Shown one piece after another: positions 3,196-47,381 of a stretch of 54,600 nucleotides of DNA. A program made the translations under genes and the position numbers. The notes beneath the pieces were generated by a model. The model was not told the origin of the DNA and did no database searches. It saw only the letters and a program-made list of their open reading frames with translations. Numbering within the stretch: the stretch's first letter is position 1; each line of letters opens with the position of its first letter. This stretch comes from Nitrosarchaeum sp. Lineage in GTDB: Archaea; Thermoproteota; Nitrososphaeria; Nitrososphaerales; Nitrosopumilaceae. Where the stretch lies: NCBI GenBank assembly GCA_002737445.1, contig NSIR01000003.1, forward strand, positions 64,719 through 119,318, in the 5' to 3' direction.

Positions 3196-3657
3196 ATGAC
3201 GCCAAATCCAATTTATTGGATATTAATGCCTAAAGACAAGGCAAAAATATGGCAAAAATTACGTATTCATATGGATGAAACATCAATTAATCGTCTAAGG
3301 GACATGTATGGTCTAAATCCCAATATTCCTCAATTGGCTTTGCAATTTCCAAGATTACCTCCAAGTTTATCAAATCCATCATTCAAAATTTTTGAAAATC
3401 CTATGAAGGAAAAATTTGAACAAGATAATGCTGCAATTAATCCAAAATTACAAGGATTTCAACAATCTTATCAAAGTTATGCATCAGGATTGCTAACTAT
3501 GAATTCAAATGGAATCATCCCTCCAGGTCACCCATTATTTACAAGACAAAATTCAATTAATGTTTTAAAGACAGAAAATGACAAATTAATTAAAGAAAAT
3601 ATGGAATTAAAGAAAAAATTAGATGAGAAAAAAGAATCTAATTCTATGATGAGATAG
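3196..3657 (+). CDS. Hypothetical protein, 153 aa, with C-terminal coiled coil
   Basis: Unrecognised. The N-terminal 20 residues are rich in hydrophobic and aromatic residues. A proline-rich middle (PRLPPSLSNPS) follows, and the last 35 residues (about 118-150, with NVLKTENDKLIKENMELKKK) form a strong leucine heptad coiled coil, so it probably oligomerises. The start at 3196 may be too early; the Met at 3229 (MPKDKAKIW) is an alternative. It stands alone between a convergent mini-gene and the 3737 gene. Confidence 0.6.
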   Translation: MTPNPIYWILMPKDKAKIWQKLRIHMDETSINRLRDMYGLNPNIPQLALQFPRLPPSLSNPSFKIFENPMKEKFEQDNAAINPKLQGFQQSYQSYASGLLTMNSNGIIPPGHPLFTRQNSINVLKTENDKLIKENMELKKKLDEKKESNSMMR

Positions 3658-3736
3658 TTTTAAAAAAATACTTTTAGAAAAAAATAAACTAGTATCTATA
3701 GCCGAATCCTTATTAATTTCAAATTTAAATTACATT

Positions 3737-4123
3737 ATGGCAAAGACTCCTGCAGAGTTATGGAAAGAAAAAATAACTGGATATAGAAAAAAATGTCAAA
3801 CTATATTGAATTTATCGGATACCATTAGATATGTGGGTGTAATTAATTCCTACGGAAGAACATTAACTGGAATTATTAGACCAAATGTAAAACCAATGTT
3901 AAAATCGGATCAAGTTAAAAATGAATTTTTCATAATTTCTACATTAATGACATTGAGAAAAGATACTGTAAGTACAATTGGTAAATTAGATCATGTGATA
4001 ATACAACACCAAAAAATATTAATTATAATTTTCCAAAAAGATCTAGTTACATACTACATTTCAATAGATAAGGCAGAAAAAAATACTAGTAAAATAATTG
4101 AATCTATCAAAAAAACAATCTAA
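3737..4123 (+). CDS. Conserved thaumarchaeal protein, 128 aa (possibly DUF6659/roadblock-like)
   Basis: A compact soluble protein. After an N-terminal helix (AELWKEKITGYRKKC) come alternating hydrophobic strands: RYVGVINSYGRTLTGIIRP, then HVIIQHQKILIIIFQ and LVTYYISID. The order of a strand pair, a helix and more strands is reminiscent of roadblock/profilin-like folds, as in thaumarchaeal DUF6659 proteins, but I cannot confirm the family. It overlaps the convergent VOC gene by 4 nt at its 3' end. Confidence 0.65.
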   Translation: MAKTPAELWKEKITGYRKKCQTILNLSDTIRYVGVINSYGRTLTGIIRPNVKPMLKSDQVKNEFFIISTLMTLRKDTVSTIGKLDHVIIQHQKILIIIFQKDLVTYYISIDKAEKNTSKIIESIKKTI

Positions 4124-4533
4124 ACTGGAGTAAATCCATAATAGCCACTTGTTTGTTCTGCTTTATCATCAAAAATAGGTTCAAACAAAGAAATCAAATA
4201 ATCATCAGGATCTAAAATTATTGCATTTTTACCGGCATCCCTATCTACAATATCGCGATAAATTTTTACTCCCTTTGATTTTAATTCTTCAACTGCAGAT
4301 TTTAGATCTCCTACCAAAAATCCTATACTGATACCATTTTCAATGGAACTACCAATGTGCTGTGCAGTAAGTGATGCTGGATGTAAACTAAGTAATGCGC
4401 CCGAAGTTCCCAAATCTACCCAAGATCGTCTTTGTCTTTTTATTGGTAATCCAATAAGTTCATTGTAAAATTTTATGGATCTATCAAGGTCTTTGACTGC
4501 TAAAATTACATTTCCAACTTTTTTTATATTCAC
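4120..4533 (-). CDS. VOC superfamily (glyoxalase/bleomycin-resistance type) protein
   Basis: A 137-residue protein with two beta-alpha-beta-beta-beta modules. The first module contains VILAVKDLDRSIKFYNELIG, the classic VOC opening, and the second contains GFLVGDLKSAVEELKSKG. The near-terminal LFEP supplies the expected metal-ligand Glu. VOC proteins cover lyases, dioxygenases and drug-binding proteins, so the substrate cannot be named. It lies just downstream of two small RAM-domain genes on the same strand and may be co-transcribed with them. Confidence 0.82.
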   Translation of the reverse strand: MNIKKVGNVILAVKDLDRSIKFYNELIGLPIKRQRRSWVDLGTSGALLSLHPASLTAQHIGSSIENGISIGFLVGDLKSAVEELKSKGVKIYRDIVDRDAGKNAIILDPDDYLISLFEPIFDDKAEQTSGYYGFTPV

Positions 4534-4567
4534 AGCTAGTATACCTCAAAGTACGATAAATTCTTTA

Positions 4568-4786
4568 TTATAATACTTCCACCATTGTTTCGGTTCTCTC
4601 AACACCTGCAATTTTTTGAATTTGTGTTGTAACATCTTTAATTTTACCTAAATCTTCTACTTCGATTATAGCTACAGCATCAAATTGACCACTAGTAGGA
4701 AATGAATCGTAAACAAAAGTTATCTTGCGCAGTCTTGCAGCAATTAATTTTTTTGGTGATTTCACTAATACAATTGCCCTTACCAT
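4568..4786 (-). CDS. Stand-alone Lrp/AsnC ligand-binding (RAM) domain protein
   Basis: A 72-residue alpha-beta protein of the RAM type: strand (MVRAIVLVKSP), helix, then FDAVAIIEVEDLGKIKDV and a last strand near ETMVEVL. It lacks the DNA-binding HTH of Lrp/AsnC regulators. Such single domains form dimers or octamers that bind amino acids or partner with full-length Lrp proteins. It overlaps the neighbouring RAM gene by 7 nt, so the two are translationally coupled and may form a heteromer. Confidence 0.8.
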   Translation of the reverse strand: MVRAIVLVKSPKKLIAARLRKITFVYDSFPTSGQFDAVAIIEVEDLGKIKDVTTQIQKIAGVERTETMVEVL

Positions 4787-5019
4787 CCCATATTTACCTC
4801 CACTTCAATTAATGTTTCAGTTGTCACAATTTCTTTAATTTTTTTGAAATCAATTACAGTATTATTTATCTCATCAATATTTCCATGTAATACAGCAGTA
4901 ACATCTGCACGTCCAGCAACAATCATGATATCTTTAACTATTTTTCGTTTTTTCTTAAGAATTGTAACTACAATGTCTACTTTGCCCGGTTTGACTGTAA
5001 TTAGACAAAGAGCCTTCAT
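4780..5019 (-). CDS. Stand-alone Lrp/AsnC ligand-binding (RAM) domain protein
   Basis: A 79-residue RAM domain starting MKALCLITVKPGKVDIV, with the ADVTAVLHGNIDEINNTVIDF core typical of the family and no HTH. It diverges in sequence from its downstream neighbour but shares the fold, suggesting an old tandem duplication. The 7-nt overlap between the genes indicates coupled synthesis. The effector is unknown. Confidence 0.8.
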   Translation of the reverse strand: MKALCLITVKPGKVDIVVTILKKKRKIVKDIMIVAGRADVTAVLHGNIDEINNTVIDFKKIKEIVTTETLIEVEVNMGW

Positions 5020-20473: not shown

Positions 20474-20617
20474 TTATACAATACAGCTTGAGTGGTATTG
20501 TTTTTCTGTAGTATTTCCACAAATTACACAGTGTAAAACTAGGGGTAAATTACAAACATTACATCTTTGTTTAATTTGAAATTCTTTTCCACATTTTCTG
20601 CACGATTCTAAACGCAT
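20474..20617 (-). CDS. Double zinc-knuckle mini-protein, 47 aa
   Basis: Reads MRLESCRKCGKEFQIKQRC and continues with CNVC, CVIC and HSSC. Eight or more Cys/His ligands in 47 residues could hold two zinc ions, in a cross-brace or tandem ribbon. It sits with two other Cys-containing genes on the same strand (20682 and 20893), so they may share a transcript. Function unknown. Confidence 0.6.
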   Translation of the reverse strand: MRLESCRKCGKEFQIKQRCNVCNLPLVLHCVICGNTTEKQYHSSCIV

Positions 20618-20681: not shown

Positions 20682-20837
20682 CTAATCAATTTTAGATAAT
20701 TGATGTAATGGTGAACCACAACTATTACATTTTTTACTCTGTATGTAATTTTGAATTGTTTGACCTTCCCAGATCAATGCATTTGCATTATGACCTTTTT
20801 CACATTCAATTTTAAATAATGTTCTTGTCAATATCAT
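20682..20837 (-). CDS. Small protein, 51 aa, with CxxC
   Basis: MILTRTLFKIECEKGHNANA opens with C-x3-H, and the end has CNSCGSPLHQLSKID. The C...H...CxxC pattern fits one zinc site. It precedes the 20474 gene and follows the 20893 gene on the same strand with gaps of 55-65 nt. Confidence 0.55.
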   Translation of the reverse strand: MILTRTLFKIECEKGHNANALIWEGQTIQNYIQSKKCNSCGSPLHQLSKID

Positions 20838-21542: not shown

Positions 21543-22016
21543 TCATACTGAATTTAGTTTATCTGCATTTTTTTCATAGAAAAATTCCTGTCTTTTCAAA
21601 TCCTTTTCGGAAATAATTCTGCATTTTCTCATTGAAACTAGTTTGGATATTTGCTCATAGGTATTCATATTTGTGATATCTGCAGCATATGCAATTTGTA
21701 ATAATGGGGACTTTTCTACAATCATTGATTTTACCTGCTCATATCCTCCACTTTGCGGCATTCCAGTTCGATAAAGTCCTATATTTTTTCCATTTTTTGA
21801 TATTTGTGGATCCTGGTAACAACAAATTGAATATTCACCATTATCTCTTTCTACAATAGTCATTCGTGTAAATTTTTCACTCCAATCCTTGATTTCATTT
21901 GAAATTATTATTGCCTCTTTTTTGTCCTCAAAAACAGTGGATACCACCAATCGATCTTTTTCATACGCCCATGAAATACCATAAAAATTTTGATGCCATT
22001 TAATTTCAAAAGACAT
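21543..22016 (-). CDS. Hypothetical protein, 157 aa
   Basis: Soluble alpha-beta protein. The N-terminal half has strands around WHQNFYGISWAYEKDRLVVS and helix KEAIIISNEIKDWSEKF. The rest contains EYSICCYQDP with adjacent cysteines and a helical end with Lys/Glu. No family recognised. Its stop is 43 nt upstream of the membrane gene on the same strand. Confidence 0.62.
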   Translation of the reverse strand: MSFEIKWHQNFYGISWAYEKDRLVVSTVFEDKKEAIIISNEIKDWSEKFTRMTIVERDNGEYSICCYQDPQISKNGKNIGLYRTGMPQSGGYEQVKSMIVEKSPLLQIAYAADITNMNTYEQISKLVSMRKCRIISEKDLKRQEFFYEKNADKLNSV

Positions 22017-22959: not shown

Positions 22960-23106
22960 CTAAATTTTCTTTAATAGTGCTTCTTGAGGTGTTTTATCTT
23001 GATTTATTTCCCAATGCCAATTGTGGTGTTTTTTCCAATGCTCTTCTAATTGTACAGTAGTAGGTTCTTTTCCAAGTGGGGTTCCACATATTTTACACTG
23101 CCTCAT
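22960..23106 (-). CDS. C2H2-like small zinc protein, 48 aa
   Basis: MRQCKICGTPLGKEPTTVQL is followed by EEHWKKHHNWHWEINQ. The CKIC pair and the following H-x3-HH form a plausible single zinc finger, with a tail of acidic and basic residues. It leads directly into the 22580 gene. Function unknown. Confidence 0.6.
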   Translation of the reverse strand: MRQCKICGTPLGKEPTTVQLEEHWKKHHNWHWEINQDKTPQEALLKKI

Positions 23107-23269: not shown

Positions 23270-23371
23270 CTAATTTTTTCGTTCTCGACGATGATGGCAA
23301 TCACACATGCACCCTTTTTGACATTCCATTCTTTTACAATCTGGGCACATTTTTTTGTTTAAATGAGACAT
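23270..23371 (-). CDS. CxCxCH mini-protein A, 33 aa
   Basis: Reads MSHLNKKMCPDCKRMECQKG and then CMCDCHHRRERKN. Six cysteines and two histidines in 33 residues: CPDC, C, and CxCDCHH. It starts 14 nt downstream of the 23385-23729 stop on the same strand, so they probably share a message. Two other genes within 900 bp carry the same C-x-C-x-C-H ending. A metallothionein-like or compact zinc-cluster protein is the natural inference. Confidence 0.6.
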   Translation of the reverse strand: MSHLNKKMCPDCKRMECQKGCMCDCHHRRERKN

Positions 23372-23384
23372 GTTTTGCTTCTAC

Positions 23385-23729
23385 CTACTTGTGTTTTTTA
23401 TTTCTGTAAAACTCTTGCGATTTTTGTCTTTTTCTCTGTTGTTCTAAATTCATGATCAAATAGGTTTTTCCTGACTCACATAGCTTCATTTCCCCAGTAA
23501 ATTCATCATGAATGGATTCAAATGTACCATAAGTTAGCAGTGTACCTACAATTTCCCATGCTTTATCCTCAGTTATTTCAAATTTGTAAGTTAAAGTTGA
23601 AACTTTGGTATAGTACCCGTTTTTTGAATTGCGTAAAATAAAATCGCTAATTTTATCTTCAATTGTCTGTGTTTTTGCTCTTGGTGTCCTATTCTCAAAT
23701 CCTCTAAATGACCTCTTATTATCTGGCAA
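23385..23729 (-). CDS. Winged-helix-like hypothetical protein, 114 aa
   Basis: A basic N-terminus (MPDNKRSFRGFENRTPRAK) precedes a wHTH-like core (EDKISDFILRNSKNGYYTK then LTYKFEITEDKAWEIVGTLL, a helix, a turn and the recognition helix), then TYGTFESIHDEFTGEM as a wing. The tail is strongly basic. A small DNA-binding regulator is plausible, but the family is not recognised. Confidence 0.62.
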   Translation of the reverse strand: MPDNKRSFRGFENRTPRAKTQTIEDKISDFILRNSKNGYYTKVSTLTYKFEITEDKAWEIVGTLLTYGTFESIHDEFTGEMKLCESGKTYLIMNLEQQRKRQKSQEFYRNKKHK

Positions 23730-23813
23730 TGCCTTTTGGGTGATTTGCTATTATTTTAGGACTTTGAACAACAAAACTTAAAGACTTTTTCAATCAAATG
23801 TTCATTGATTCCC

Positions 23814-23942
23814 ATGAGTGAAAATGCAAAAAAGTTGGAACTATTGCGAATTAAAAATGGTCGTAGTAAACGTTGTCTTGATTGCAAAAAAAATCACTGT
23901 GTTGTTGAATCATGCTATTGTGACTGTCATTTGAAATGCTAA
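23814..23942 (+). CDS. CxCxCH mini-protein B, 42 aa
   Basis: MSENAKKLELLRIKNGRSKR is followed by CLDC, C, and then CYCDCHLKC. Seven cysteines, with the same CxCDCH motif as the 33-residue protein 450 bp away but on the other strand. The N-terminal 20 residues are basic and helical. The three paralogues look like diverged copies rather than simple duplicates. Confidence 0.6.
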   Translation: MSENAKKLELLRIKNGRSKRCLDCKKNHCVVESCYCDCHLKC

Positions 23943-24115
23943 CTGGTATCAAAGACCTATGTGTCAGACCTGAATGACGAGCTTCACTGCTCTAATCTGA
24001 GAGAGGTTGTGGGTATTGGTCATTTCCCAATCTAGCCAATTAGCAATTTTAGTAGATATTTCATAAATAAAGAGTTTAGTTTCATGATTGGTTTTGGGAT
24101 TTTAAAAAAATATGA

Positions 24116-24238
24116 TTAAAATGATTTTGAATCCATGTTTCTTGACTCCGTCATTAGGAGTTTATGGCATTTACACATACAATTAGAATGAATCATGTCA
24201 TGATCATTTCTATATTTACACTCTTTAGTATGTTCCAT
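24116..24238 (-). CDS. CxCxCH mini-protein C, 40 aa
   Basis: MEHTKECKYRNDHDMIHSN then CMCKCHKLLMTESRNM. Four Cys and four His, with the CxCKCH motif. The TATA-like TATAAAAG region near 24253-24265 lies about 20-26 nt before the ATG. It is the third member of the local CxCxCH group. Confidence 0.55.
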   Translation of the reverse strand: MEHTKECKYRNDHDMIHSNCMCKCHKLLMTESRNMDSKSF

Positions 24239-24348
24239 GAATGCTAGTTTTGACTTTTATACATTTAAAGATTTAATGATCAAAACATTATTTGATCAAA
24301 CTTTTGACAAAGTTGATTTAATTAAAAATAAAAAAATGCTTCAAGTAA

Positions 24349-24399
24349 CTATTTCTTTTTTGAAGCTTTCTTTGCTGCTGGTTTTTTCTTTGCTGCCAT
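24349..24399 (-). CDS. Possible 16-aa Lys/Ala peptide
   Basis: The ORF is MAAKKKPAAKKASKKK, the composition of histone H1 or bacterial HU tails. It has the A/K/P-rich repeat of nucleoid-associated tails but no globular domain. If translated it would bind DNA or RNA nonspecifically. Very short, so real only if conserved. Confidence 0.35.
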   Translation of the reverse strand: MAAKKKPAAKKASKKK

Positions 24400-25240: not shown

Positions 25241-25459
25241 TTAATTCACTATATTTGATTTAAAAAACGCCAACGTGCATTCAGCAAGTCCCTTGCTTGA
25301 ATGTTTTTTTATTGCATGTTTACAGTTTGGACACATGCCTTTATCCTCATCTGTAAAATCATCCCCTACTTGTTTCATACAACATTCCATTAACTCTCCA
25401 GTAGAATGCGATTCCATAGATAACTTACATGTTGGGCATTCAGTCATATTTTTCACCAT
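25241..25459 (-). CDS. Duplicated zinc-ribbon protein, 72 aa
   Basis: Two similar halves: ECPTCKLSMESHSTGELMEC and MCPNCKHAIKKHSSKGLAEC. Each has CPxC, then a His, then Gly-Glu/Ala-Glu-Cys at the same spacing, so one C2HC-type zinc module has been duplicated in tandem. The first-half ligands are complete and include an extra Cys (ECC). Upstream starts are possible; the Met five codons in (MTECPTC) may be the real one. Confidence 0.65.
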   Translation of the reverse strand: MVKNMTECPTCKLSMESHSTGELMECCMKQVGDDFTDEDKGMCPNCKHAIKKHSSKGLAECTLAFFKSNIVN

Positions 25460-25673: not shown

Positions 25674-25925
25674 TTGAATATTTTTGATAATAACCAATTA
25701 GAGTGTAGTTCGTGTCATGATAAAGTTATTTTTGATTTCATTGAGGAAATTGAATGTGATTGGGGGATACATCAAGTAATTCAATGCCCAAACTGTGAGG
25801 AATTATTTTCAATTGATCAAAAATGTCCGGCATTTTCAAATTTTAATGATTTGTTTGAACTAAATCTAAATTTACTTACAAACCAACAAAAAATAAATTA
25901 TTTCAATCAATCTCACAAATTTTAA
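25674..25925 (+). CDS. Zinc-ribbon protein, 83 aa, TTG start
   Basis: MNIFDNNQLECSSCHDKVIF is followed by CDWGIHQVIQCPNCEELFSI, then an acidic, helical tail. The CSSC and CPNC pairs about 28 residues apart form a classic zinc ribbon. The TTG start lies 38 nt after a TATA-like region (25631-25641). An ATG at 25661 is out of frame and gives only 8 codons, so a short leader is likely. Confidence 0.6.
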   Translation: MNIFDNNQLECSSCHDKVIFDFIEEIECDWGIHQVIQCPNCEELFSIDQKCPAFSNFNDLFELNLNLLTNQQKINYFNQSHKF

Positions 25926-27610: not shown

Positions 27611-27742
27611 CTAATTTTGCATTTCGTTTTTCTTTCTGGACATTATCTCTTTATTTCGTTCCATATCTGAATGAATTTCCACATGATCATACAGGGATTC
27701 TTTAGTGTCAAAAATTTGCTCACAGTAGTAACATTGGTGCAT
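27611..27742 (-). CDS. Classical C2H2 zinc-finger mini-protein, 43 aa
   Basis: MHQCYYCEQIFDTKESLYDH, then VEIH: Cys-x2-Cys-x12-His-x3-His with Phe and Leu in the core positions, a textbook C2H2 finger. A short basic tail follows (RKKNEMQN). Single C2H2 fingers occur in archaea as small DNA- or RNA-binding proteins. Confidence 0.68.
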   Translation of the reverse strand: MHQCYYCEQIFDTKESLYDHVEIHSDMERNKEIMSRKKNEMQN

Positions 27743-46194: not shown

Positions 46195-47381
46195 AATATC
46201 CTAAAGATGGTAAATTTGGAGAGTTTGGTGGAAAATATATTCCAGAGACACTAGTACCAGCTACAGAAGAACTAGAAAAAAATTATCTAAAATTTAAAGA
46301 TGATAAAGATTTTAAAAAAGAGCTTGACTATTATCTGAAACAATACGCGGGAAGACCAACTCCATTATACTATGCAAAAAATTTATCAGAAATATGTGGC
46401 GGCGCCAAAATATATCTTAAAAGAGAGGATTTACTCCATGGTGGTGCACATAAAATCAACAATACATTAGGTCAAGCACTGTTGGCAAAAAAAATGAATA
46501 AAAAAAGAATAATTGCCGAAACTGGTGCAGGTCAACATGGAGTGGCAACTGCAATGGCATGTGCAGTTTTAGGAATTAAATCTGAAATATACATGGGTTA
46601 CAAAGATACGATACGCCAAAAACAAAATGTCTATAGAATGAACATGTTGGGAGCCAAAGTTCATCCGGTAAAATCAGGATCAAAAACACTCAAAGATGCA
46701 ATTAATGAGGCAATTAGAGATTGGATTACAAATGTAGAAAATACATATTATTTACTAGGTTCAGCAGTAGGACCACACCCATATCCAGTAATGGTTAGAG
46801 ATTTTCAAAGTGTGATTGGCAAGGAAATTAAAGTTCAAATGAAAAAAATAACAAACAAAATACCAGATATTGTAATTGCGTGTGTTGGCGGTGGTTCAAA
46901 TGCGATTGGGACATTTTATCCACTTGTAGATACTAGTGCTGAAATTATCGGTGTAGAGGCTGCAGGTAAGGGATTAAAAACAAAATATCATTCTGCAACA
47001 TTGTCAGCTGGAAGTAAAGGTGTACTACATGGAATGATGACATATCTATTACAAAATGATGAAGGTCAGATTGCAGAAACTCATAGTATTTCTGCAGGGC
47101 TTGATTATCCAGGTGTTGGTCCAGAGCATTCTTTTTTTAAAGATATAAAAAGAATAAAGTATCATTCCGCAACTGATGCTGAGGTAATTGATGCCTTTAT
47201 GATGTTGACAAAAACTGAAGGAATAATTCCCGCATTAGAATCAGCACATGCAATTGCAGAGGCAATAAAAATTGCACAAAAAAGTAAAAAATCTGAATCA
47301 ATAGTAGTTACGCTTTCAGGAAGAGGAGACAAAGACGTAGAGGAAGTACAAAAATATTTGAATAAACATGTCAAGAATTAA
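46191..47381 (+). CDS. trpB: Tryptophan synthase beta chain
   Basis: PLP enzyme of 396 residues joining indole and serine. The PLP Lys is in [19 protein letters not shown], and the phosphate site in [14 protein letters not shown]. It matches the TrpB1 type ([35 protein letters not shown]), the form that pairs with TrpA. The start is TTG. It overlaps trpA by 14 nt. Confidence 0.96.

Follow-up and report, generated by a model that had tools for sequence, protein, structure and literature searches.

A lineage-wide set of short CxCxCH genes in mesophilic ammonia-oxidizing archaea, likely to encode zinc-binding micro-proteins

Three neighboring ORFs in the window (the whole stretch of 54,600 nucleotides analyzed here, positions 64719-119318 of contig C7 of a Nitrosarchaeum genome, family Nitrosopumilaceae) encode proteins of 33, 42, and 40 amino acids that carry a CxCxCH block. 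ORF B (33 aa, MSHLNKKMCPDCKRMECQKGCMCDCHHRRERKN) occupies positions 23270-23371 of the minus strand, with its block, CMCDCH, at 23294-23311 (-); ORF C (42 aa, MSENAKKLELLRIKNGRSKRCLDCKKNHCVVESCYCDCHLKC) lies on the plus strand at 23814-23942, with CYCDCH at 23913-23930 (+); and ORF A (40 aa, MEHTKECKYRNDHDMIHSNCMCKCHKLLMTESRNMDSKSF) lies on the minus strand at 24116-24238, with CMCKCH at 24164-24181 (-). The three CxC[D/K]CH proteins, pointed out in an earlier sequence-only reading of this DNA, are thus present, and in numbers far above shuffled expectation: 3 of the 1056 stop-to-stop ORFs of ≥25 aa in the window contain CxC[DK]CH (mean of 0.013 after residue shuffling), and the codon pattern for CxCxCH, TGYNNNTGYNNNTGYCAY, has 4 matches in the window against an expected mean of 0.12 (dinucleotide shuffles, 0 of 100 reaching 4). 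The fourth DNA match, CHCSCH at 46542, looks like a chance ORF. We counted 6, 7, and 4 Cys residues in B, C, and A, respectively, in agreement with the 4 to 7 per approximately 40 residues given earlier, and Cys content amounts to 10 to 22%. The net charge is +5 in both B and C and +1 in A. The block is located toward the C terminus of all three proteins, but not at their very end, where the earlier reading had placed it, since 7 (B), 3 (C), and 15 (A) residues follow.

Outside the motif, the three proteins had been described as unlike each other, which is wrong for two of them. B and C have in common CxDCK and the arrangement C-x2-C-x4-C-x3/4-C-x-C-x-C-H, and a single profile recovers both; judging from these sequences, ORFs 23270 and 23814 are paralogues. 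All six Cys and the final His of B/C proteins are invariant across 29 sequences, and these ligands span 18 to 19 residues. On profile comparison, ORF 24116 (A) is a lineage separate from B/C. A single-gene tandem duplication as the source of all three ORFs was rejected, because the A profile matches B/C at the motif only (hhalign probability of 15).

Among the ORFs around motif matches, we found at least eight recurrent subfamilies of proteins, designated A through H. Their consensus sequences are MEHTKEC[EK]YRNxHDMIHxNCFCKCHK...MDSKSF (A), NKKxCSDCKRMKCQKGCxCDCHQLRDR (B), MSEKARRIEELRMKTGRSKRCLDCKKHRCIIDSCQC[SD]CHLK (C), MICAACETRKHYECIDCVNNHETHLCHCDCHDENTKPHPVDKPH (D), KDPTELCSCKCHYGGAVSCPGCKSNHGIVCCHCKD (E), MSxCEEPSCICKCHE...RRIRG (F), NCLCDCHLDDAMICLNCVEQH (G), and NQCHNPLSHCHCKCHYCGKRDDCECALFD (H). 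The [D/K] of the original motif therefore describes the three window ORFs but is not a fixed position, as subfamily C usually has S instead of D in the block. Subfamily D retains 7 Cys and 4 His across 20 sequences and seems, from profile comparison, to join B/C, with a probability of 92 over 22 columns that was obtained without a shuffled control and is of a kind that Cys-rich profiles inflate. Genomes carry up to seven B/C members, and three copies contain in-frame stop codons (G088:C7:50694, G074:C63:378, and G036:C45:15177) and are apparently decaying paralogues, which suggests paralogue gain and decay. In 13 Nitrosopumilus loci (L118 and others), A is preceded by an ORF, MNDDFAEYTKCRTCGVALIYCDCNCPYCGKRDGCTCLLDEITITN, that is similar to subfamily H except that Pro replaces the His of the motif.

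The substitutions within subfamilies are concentrated at third codon positions, with pN far below pS, and the signal is lost in frames shifted by 1 or 2. Because the first regular expressions fixed the motif, the selection analysis was repeated with less biased sampling. For C, with members taken by synteny with A, omega is 0.10 (95% interval, 0.05 to 0.19), and it is 0.13 when Cys/His columns are removed. For A, outside the search seeds, omega is 0.14 (0.05 to 0.29), and 0.23 without Cys/His. The omega of D (0.03) is biased low, because its set was chosen by D's own motif; the estimate for B comes from the first analysis alone, in which the motif residues were required, and is likewise biased low. 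The three window ORFs are genuine coding genes under purifying selection, and the possibility raised earlier that the codons show no such selection has failed for A, C, and D (omega of about 0.03 to 0.14, with no signal in the wrong frames).

The motif is family-wide and not limited to the genome in which it was noticed. Near-complete genomes of Nitrosopumilaceae (f1) contain it in 135 of 136 cases, with a mean of 5.30 matches per genome versus 0.40 for the control. Five TGYNNNTGYRANTGYCAY matches occur in the window's own genome, three of them being the window ORFs, and each of 18 Nitrosarchaeum genomes has 2 to 11 (129 in total, versus 0 when the pattern is read backwards). With the order of codons reversed (HC[DEKN]CxC), a stricter control, 54 matches occur in the same 18 genomes, partly at recurring sites, so that background accounts for a fair share of the raw matches, and the counts alone should not be over-read. 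Elsewhere, near-complete genomes of f11, presumably Nitrososphaeraceae, have 3.62 matches per genome (control, 0.62) and carry other members, such as MEKLQLSTYCKNLKHIECDDCMCNCHVPGTMENLARKISMLDKTNPG and MFLTFFCKRDKHKECPG...CSFDMKMERCECECH, both of which occur in at least two genomes; family f12 has 5 matches, in one genome. The AmoA-positive family f10 is at background (0.50 versus 0.67 in the control), AmoA-negative families of the same order have 0.54 versus 0.26, and other families of the phylum mostly have 0 to 1 matches, similar to controls.

One scan of a GTDB collection of bacteria and archaea gave relatives of A at 55 loci in named genomes; every title that states a lineage is archaeal and thaumarchaeal, and the records include Nitrosarchaeum, Nitrosopumilus, and other thaumarchaeal ones. 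The D profile has members in 106 genomes, all f1 among those listed, and the shared B/C profile recovers members in 94 of the 232 genomes of the class, all f1. The family of conserved short genes that would have supported the earlier reading exists and, as far as sequence matches define it, spans marine and freshwater ammonia-oxidizing archaea plus soil relatives, with several members per genome. The motif set tracks mesophilic ammonia oxidizers and not all AmoA carriers; a strict marker of ammonia oxidation, which all AmoA genomes and no others would carry, was rejected given the background level in AmoA-positive f10. Because the lineages are related, this pattern amounts to one phylogenetic contrast and not to many.

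The earlier statement that no named family fits the pattern agrees with our searches of Pfam, NCBIfam, and the literature, in which none was found; the literature yielded no description of this family. Pfam at E ≤ 1 gave no match for window A, window B, or relatives of A/B/C, and only an unrelated sub-threshold FYVE-type match for window C; across Pfam, NCBIfam, and PDB sequences, nothing was significant. PHROGs yielded no match for A, B, and C and weak ones for G (E = 0.003, function unknown) and H (E = 0.6). A viral origin is without support, as IMG/VR viral contigs and phage records contain no relatives of A, B/C, or D. Structure-based identification was abandoned because both AlphaFold models are too weak (B, pLDDT of 63.5 and pTM of 0.26; D, pLDDT of 63.1 and pTM of 0.33).

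In A, C, D, and E, the start codon is preceded by a conserved promoter-like element. The element upstream of C (AAAACTTAAAGACTTTTTCAATC, 23773-23795, plus strand) recurs as AAACCTAAAGACTTTTTGAATC or near variants in other Nitrosarchaeum loci and may also serve the divergent gene P114, which encodes a 114-aa protein at 23385-23729 (-). The element upstream of A (AATCTTTAAATGTATAAAAG, 24254-24273, minus strand) recurs as AATCTTTAAGTGTATAAAAA or near variants in most Nitrosarchaeum loci, at an about constant distance to the ATG. P114 has no Pfam match above the cut-off, would by eye be winged-helix-like, and ends 13 nt before B, with which it is probably co-transcribed; B directly follows P114 in six Nitrosarchaeum loci (the window, L098, L099, L105, L108, and L147), and the neighbors of other B copies are varied. 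Orthologues of all three window genes are grouped in other Nitrosarchaeum species. Where a Nitrosarchaeum locus includes the entire stretch, A and C converge and P114 lies beyond C, the exception being L136, in which C was not found. In Nitrosopumilus, the position of P114 with respect to A differs, and A generally has no C nearby. The genes that flank subfamily E are the same in 13 of 13 loci. D adjoins a 219-aa ORF and has an SNF2-type helicase nearby in most of the 30 loci compared, the helicase being immediately downstream in Nitrosarchaeum and g5 and further off in others. These two genes (in L055, positions 2215-2874 for the 219-aa ORF, nuclease-like by eye and without a Pfam match, and 3209-4933 for the helicase) flank D across genera, and a linkage to DNA repair is possible. 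Such conserved neighbors are suggestive hints, and only that, to the partner of a micro-protein.

Ammonia-oxidizing archaea are among the most abundant organisms of the ocean and of soils, and many of their genes still lack an assigned function. Genes of this set, encoding 33 to 44 aa, occur in nearly every Nitrosopumilaceae genome examined, either as single copies or in expanded number; strong purifying selection acts on them, and they match nothing in the family libraries searched. The set is real and conserved. Naming it would provide profiles for genome annotators and small, easily synthesized peptides for direct measurement of metals and partners.

We hypothesize that the ORFs encode lineage-wide zinc-binding micro-proteins of mesophilic ammonia oxidizers that act as small protein- or nucleic-acid-binding modules, an assignment to which we give somewhat better than even chances. 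The three ORFs would be expressed as genes of the micro-protein set, and each product would fold around a metal site of one or two ions, most likely Zn2+, with two or three upstream Cys/His residues and the C-x-C-x-C-H block as ligands. The ligand-rich Cys/His pattern is, as proposed earlier, compatible with zinc or copper binding, and the six Cys and one His invariant in B/C are ligands enough for one or two Zn2+. The small rigid module would then bind a specific partner. For B and C, which are basic, this would be RNA, DNA, or a transcription or repair protein; A and the acidic D would probably bind a protein. The micro-proteins may have a regulatory role. Both A (HTKEC.YR and the C-terminal tail) and D (IDC and much of the DENT.PHP stretch) have conserved residues other than the ligands, which point to a specific interface; together with the opposite charges of B/C (+5) and D (-3), they favor specific partner binding over bulk metal storage. 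We regard this zinc-binding, partner-module mechanism as likely.

Among proteins described so far, the closest are the haloarchaeal C(P)xCG zinc-finger micro-proteins, including HVO_2753 and HVO_0758 of Haloferax volcanii (PMC6562870, PMC10716476, PMC11241148). Both sets are archaeal, shorter than 70 aa (33, 42, and 40 aa here), numerous in each genome, stand-alone, and equipped with Cys ligand pairs. However, the haloarchaeal proteins have two C(P)xCG knuckles, whereas B/C have CxxC plus CxCxCH with His ligands and no CxCG pair, and A has no CxxC; the two sets belong to different archaeal lineages, and no common family model was found. Zinc binding is reported for most haloarchaeal micro-proteins with paired Cys motifs that were tested, but several are zinc-free, and AlphaFold2 cannot decide zinc binding (PMC11241148).

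The main rival, a metallothionein-type role as Cu(I)/zinc buffers or chaperones for the copper-heavy machinery of ammonia oxidation, appears rather unlikely to us. CxCxC thiolate clusters suit Cu(I), and the motif set tracks mesophilic ammonia oxidizers. These archaea depend on copper, and Nitrososphaera viennensis has a Csp copper storage protein with 18 Cys (PMC7785015). That Cys-rich protein, of a type found in ammonia-oxidizing archaea and methanotrophs, is much longer, however, and its Cys residues make up 15% of it (PMC7785015), whereas the micro-proteins have 33 to 44 aa. The background level in AmoA-positive f10 speaks against a buffer, and inspection of the loci, whose neighbors were read without systematic annotation, revealed no linked copper genes. 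Bacterial metallothioneins of the SmtA/BmtA type are likewise short and Cys-rich with CxC motifs, and the earlier reading had likened the window proteins to them. This likeness is so far unsupported: the Cys share is lower here, the non-ligand positions are strongly conserved, and no metallothionein model in Pfam or NCBIfam matches at E ≤ 1. We are similarly doubtful that the ORFs represent an undescribed class of metal site, C-x-D-C-x3/4-[CH]-x3/4-C-x-C-[DKSN]-C-H, which would have radiated into many micro-proteins in mesophilic ammonia oxidizers and would work as dedicated metal-responsive regulators or copper/zinc handlers.

It is improbable that the proteins bind DNA through a cluster similar to one half of a CXC (tesmin/TSO1/MSL2) or pre-SET Zn3Cys9 module. 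The C-K-K-x2-C-x4-C-x-C of C has the spacing of the first half of CXC domains, which is a lead only, and B and C share with such domains their basic residues. The CXC domain of MSL2 binds DNA and holds a Zn3Cys9 cluster (PMC3447885). This cluster needs nine invariant Cys with conserved spacing (PMC3447885), whereas B/C have six invariant Cys plus His, and neither Pfam at E ≤ 1 nor the PDB sequences gave a match to a CXC protein. Still less probable are Fe-S or redox thiol mini-proteins. The B/C profile is weakly similar to a ferredoxin cluster segment in PDB sequences, but the E-values (0.12 to 0.24) are not significant, and the conserved His and CxCxCH spacing differ from those of ferredoxins; D is near a superoxide dismutase gene in the window's own genome, the one genome covered for this linkage. 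Finally, the very short length of the ORFs, the chance-like appearance of certain pattern matches elsewhere, and the 54 matches of the codon-reversed motif might suggest spurious ORFs or a nucleic-acid element without a protein product, which is extremely unlikely given that changes fall mainly on third codon positions, that omega is far below 1, and that the subfamilies have orthologous members in different genera.

The window is also dense in further small ORFs with many Cys and His residues, which resemble zinc ribbons or C2H2 fingers, at 20474-20617 (-), 20682-20837 (-), 22960-23106 (-), 25241-25459 (-), 25674-25925 (+), and 27611-27742 (-). The ORF at 22960-23106 recurs in 33 of 56 loci around A and has only a sub-threshold match to zf-met2 in Pfam. 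A 157-aa ORF at 21543-22016 (-), without a Pfam match over the cut-off, shows conservation near A in 42 of 56 loci. A 16-residue Lys/Ala-rich ORF (MAAKKKPAAKKASKKK, 24349-24399, minus strand), which shares the strand of A and lies immediately upstream of it, resembles a chromatin tail.
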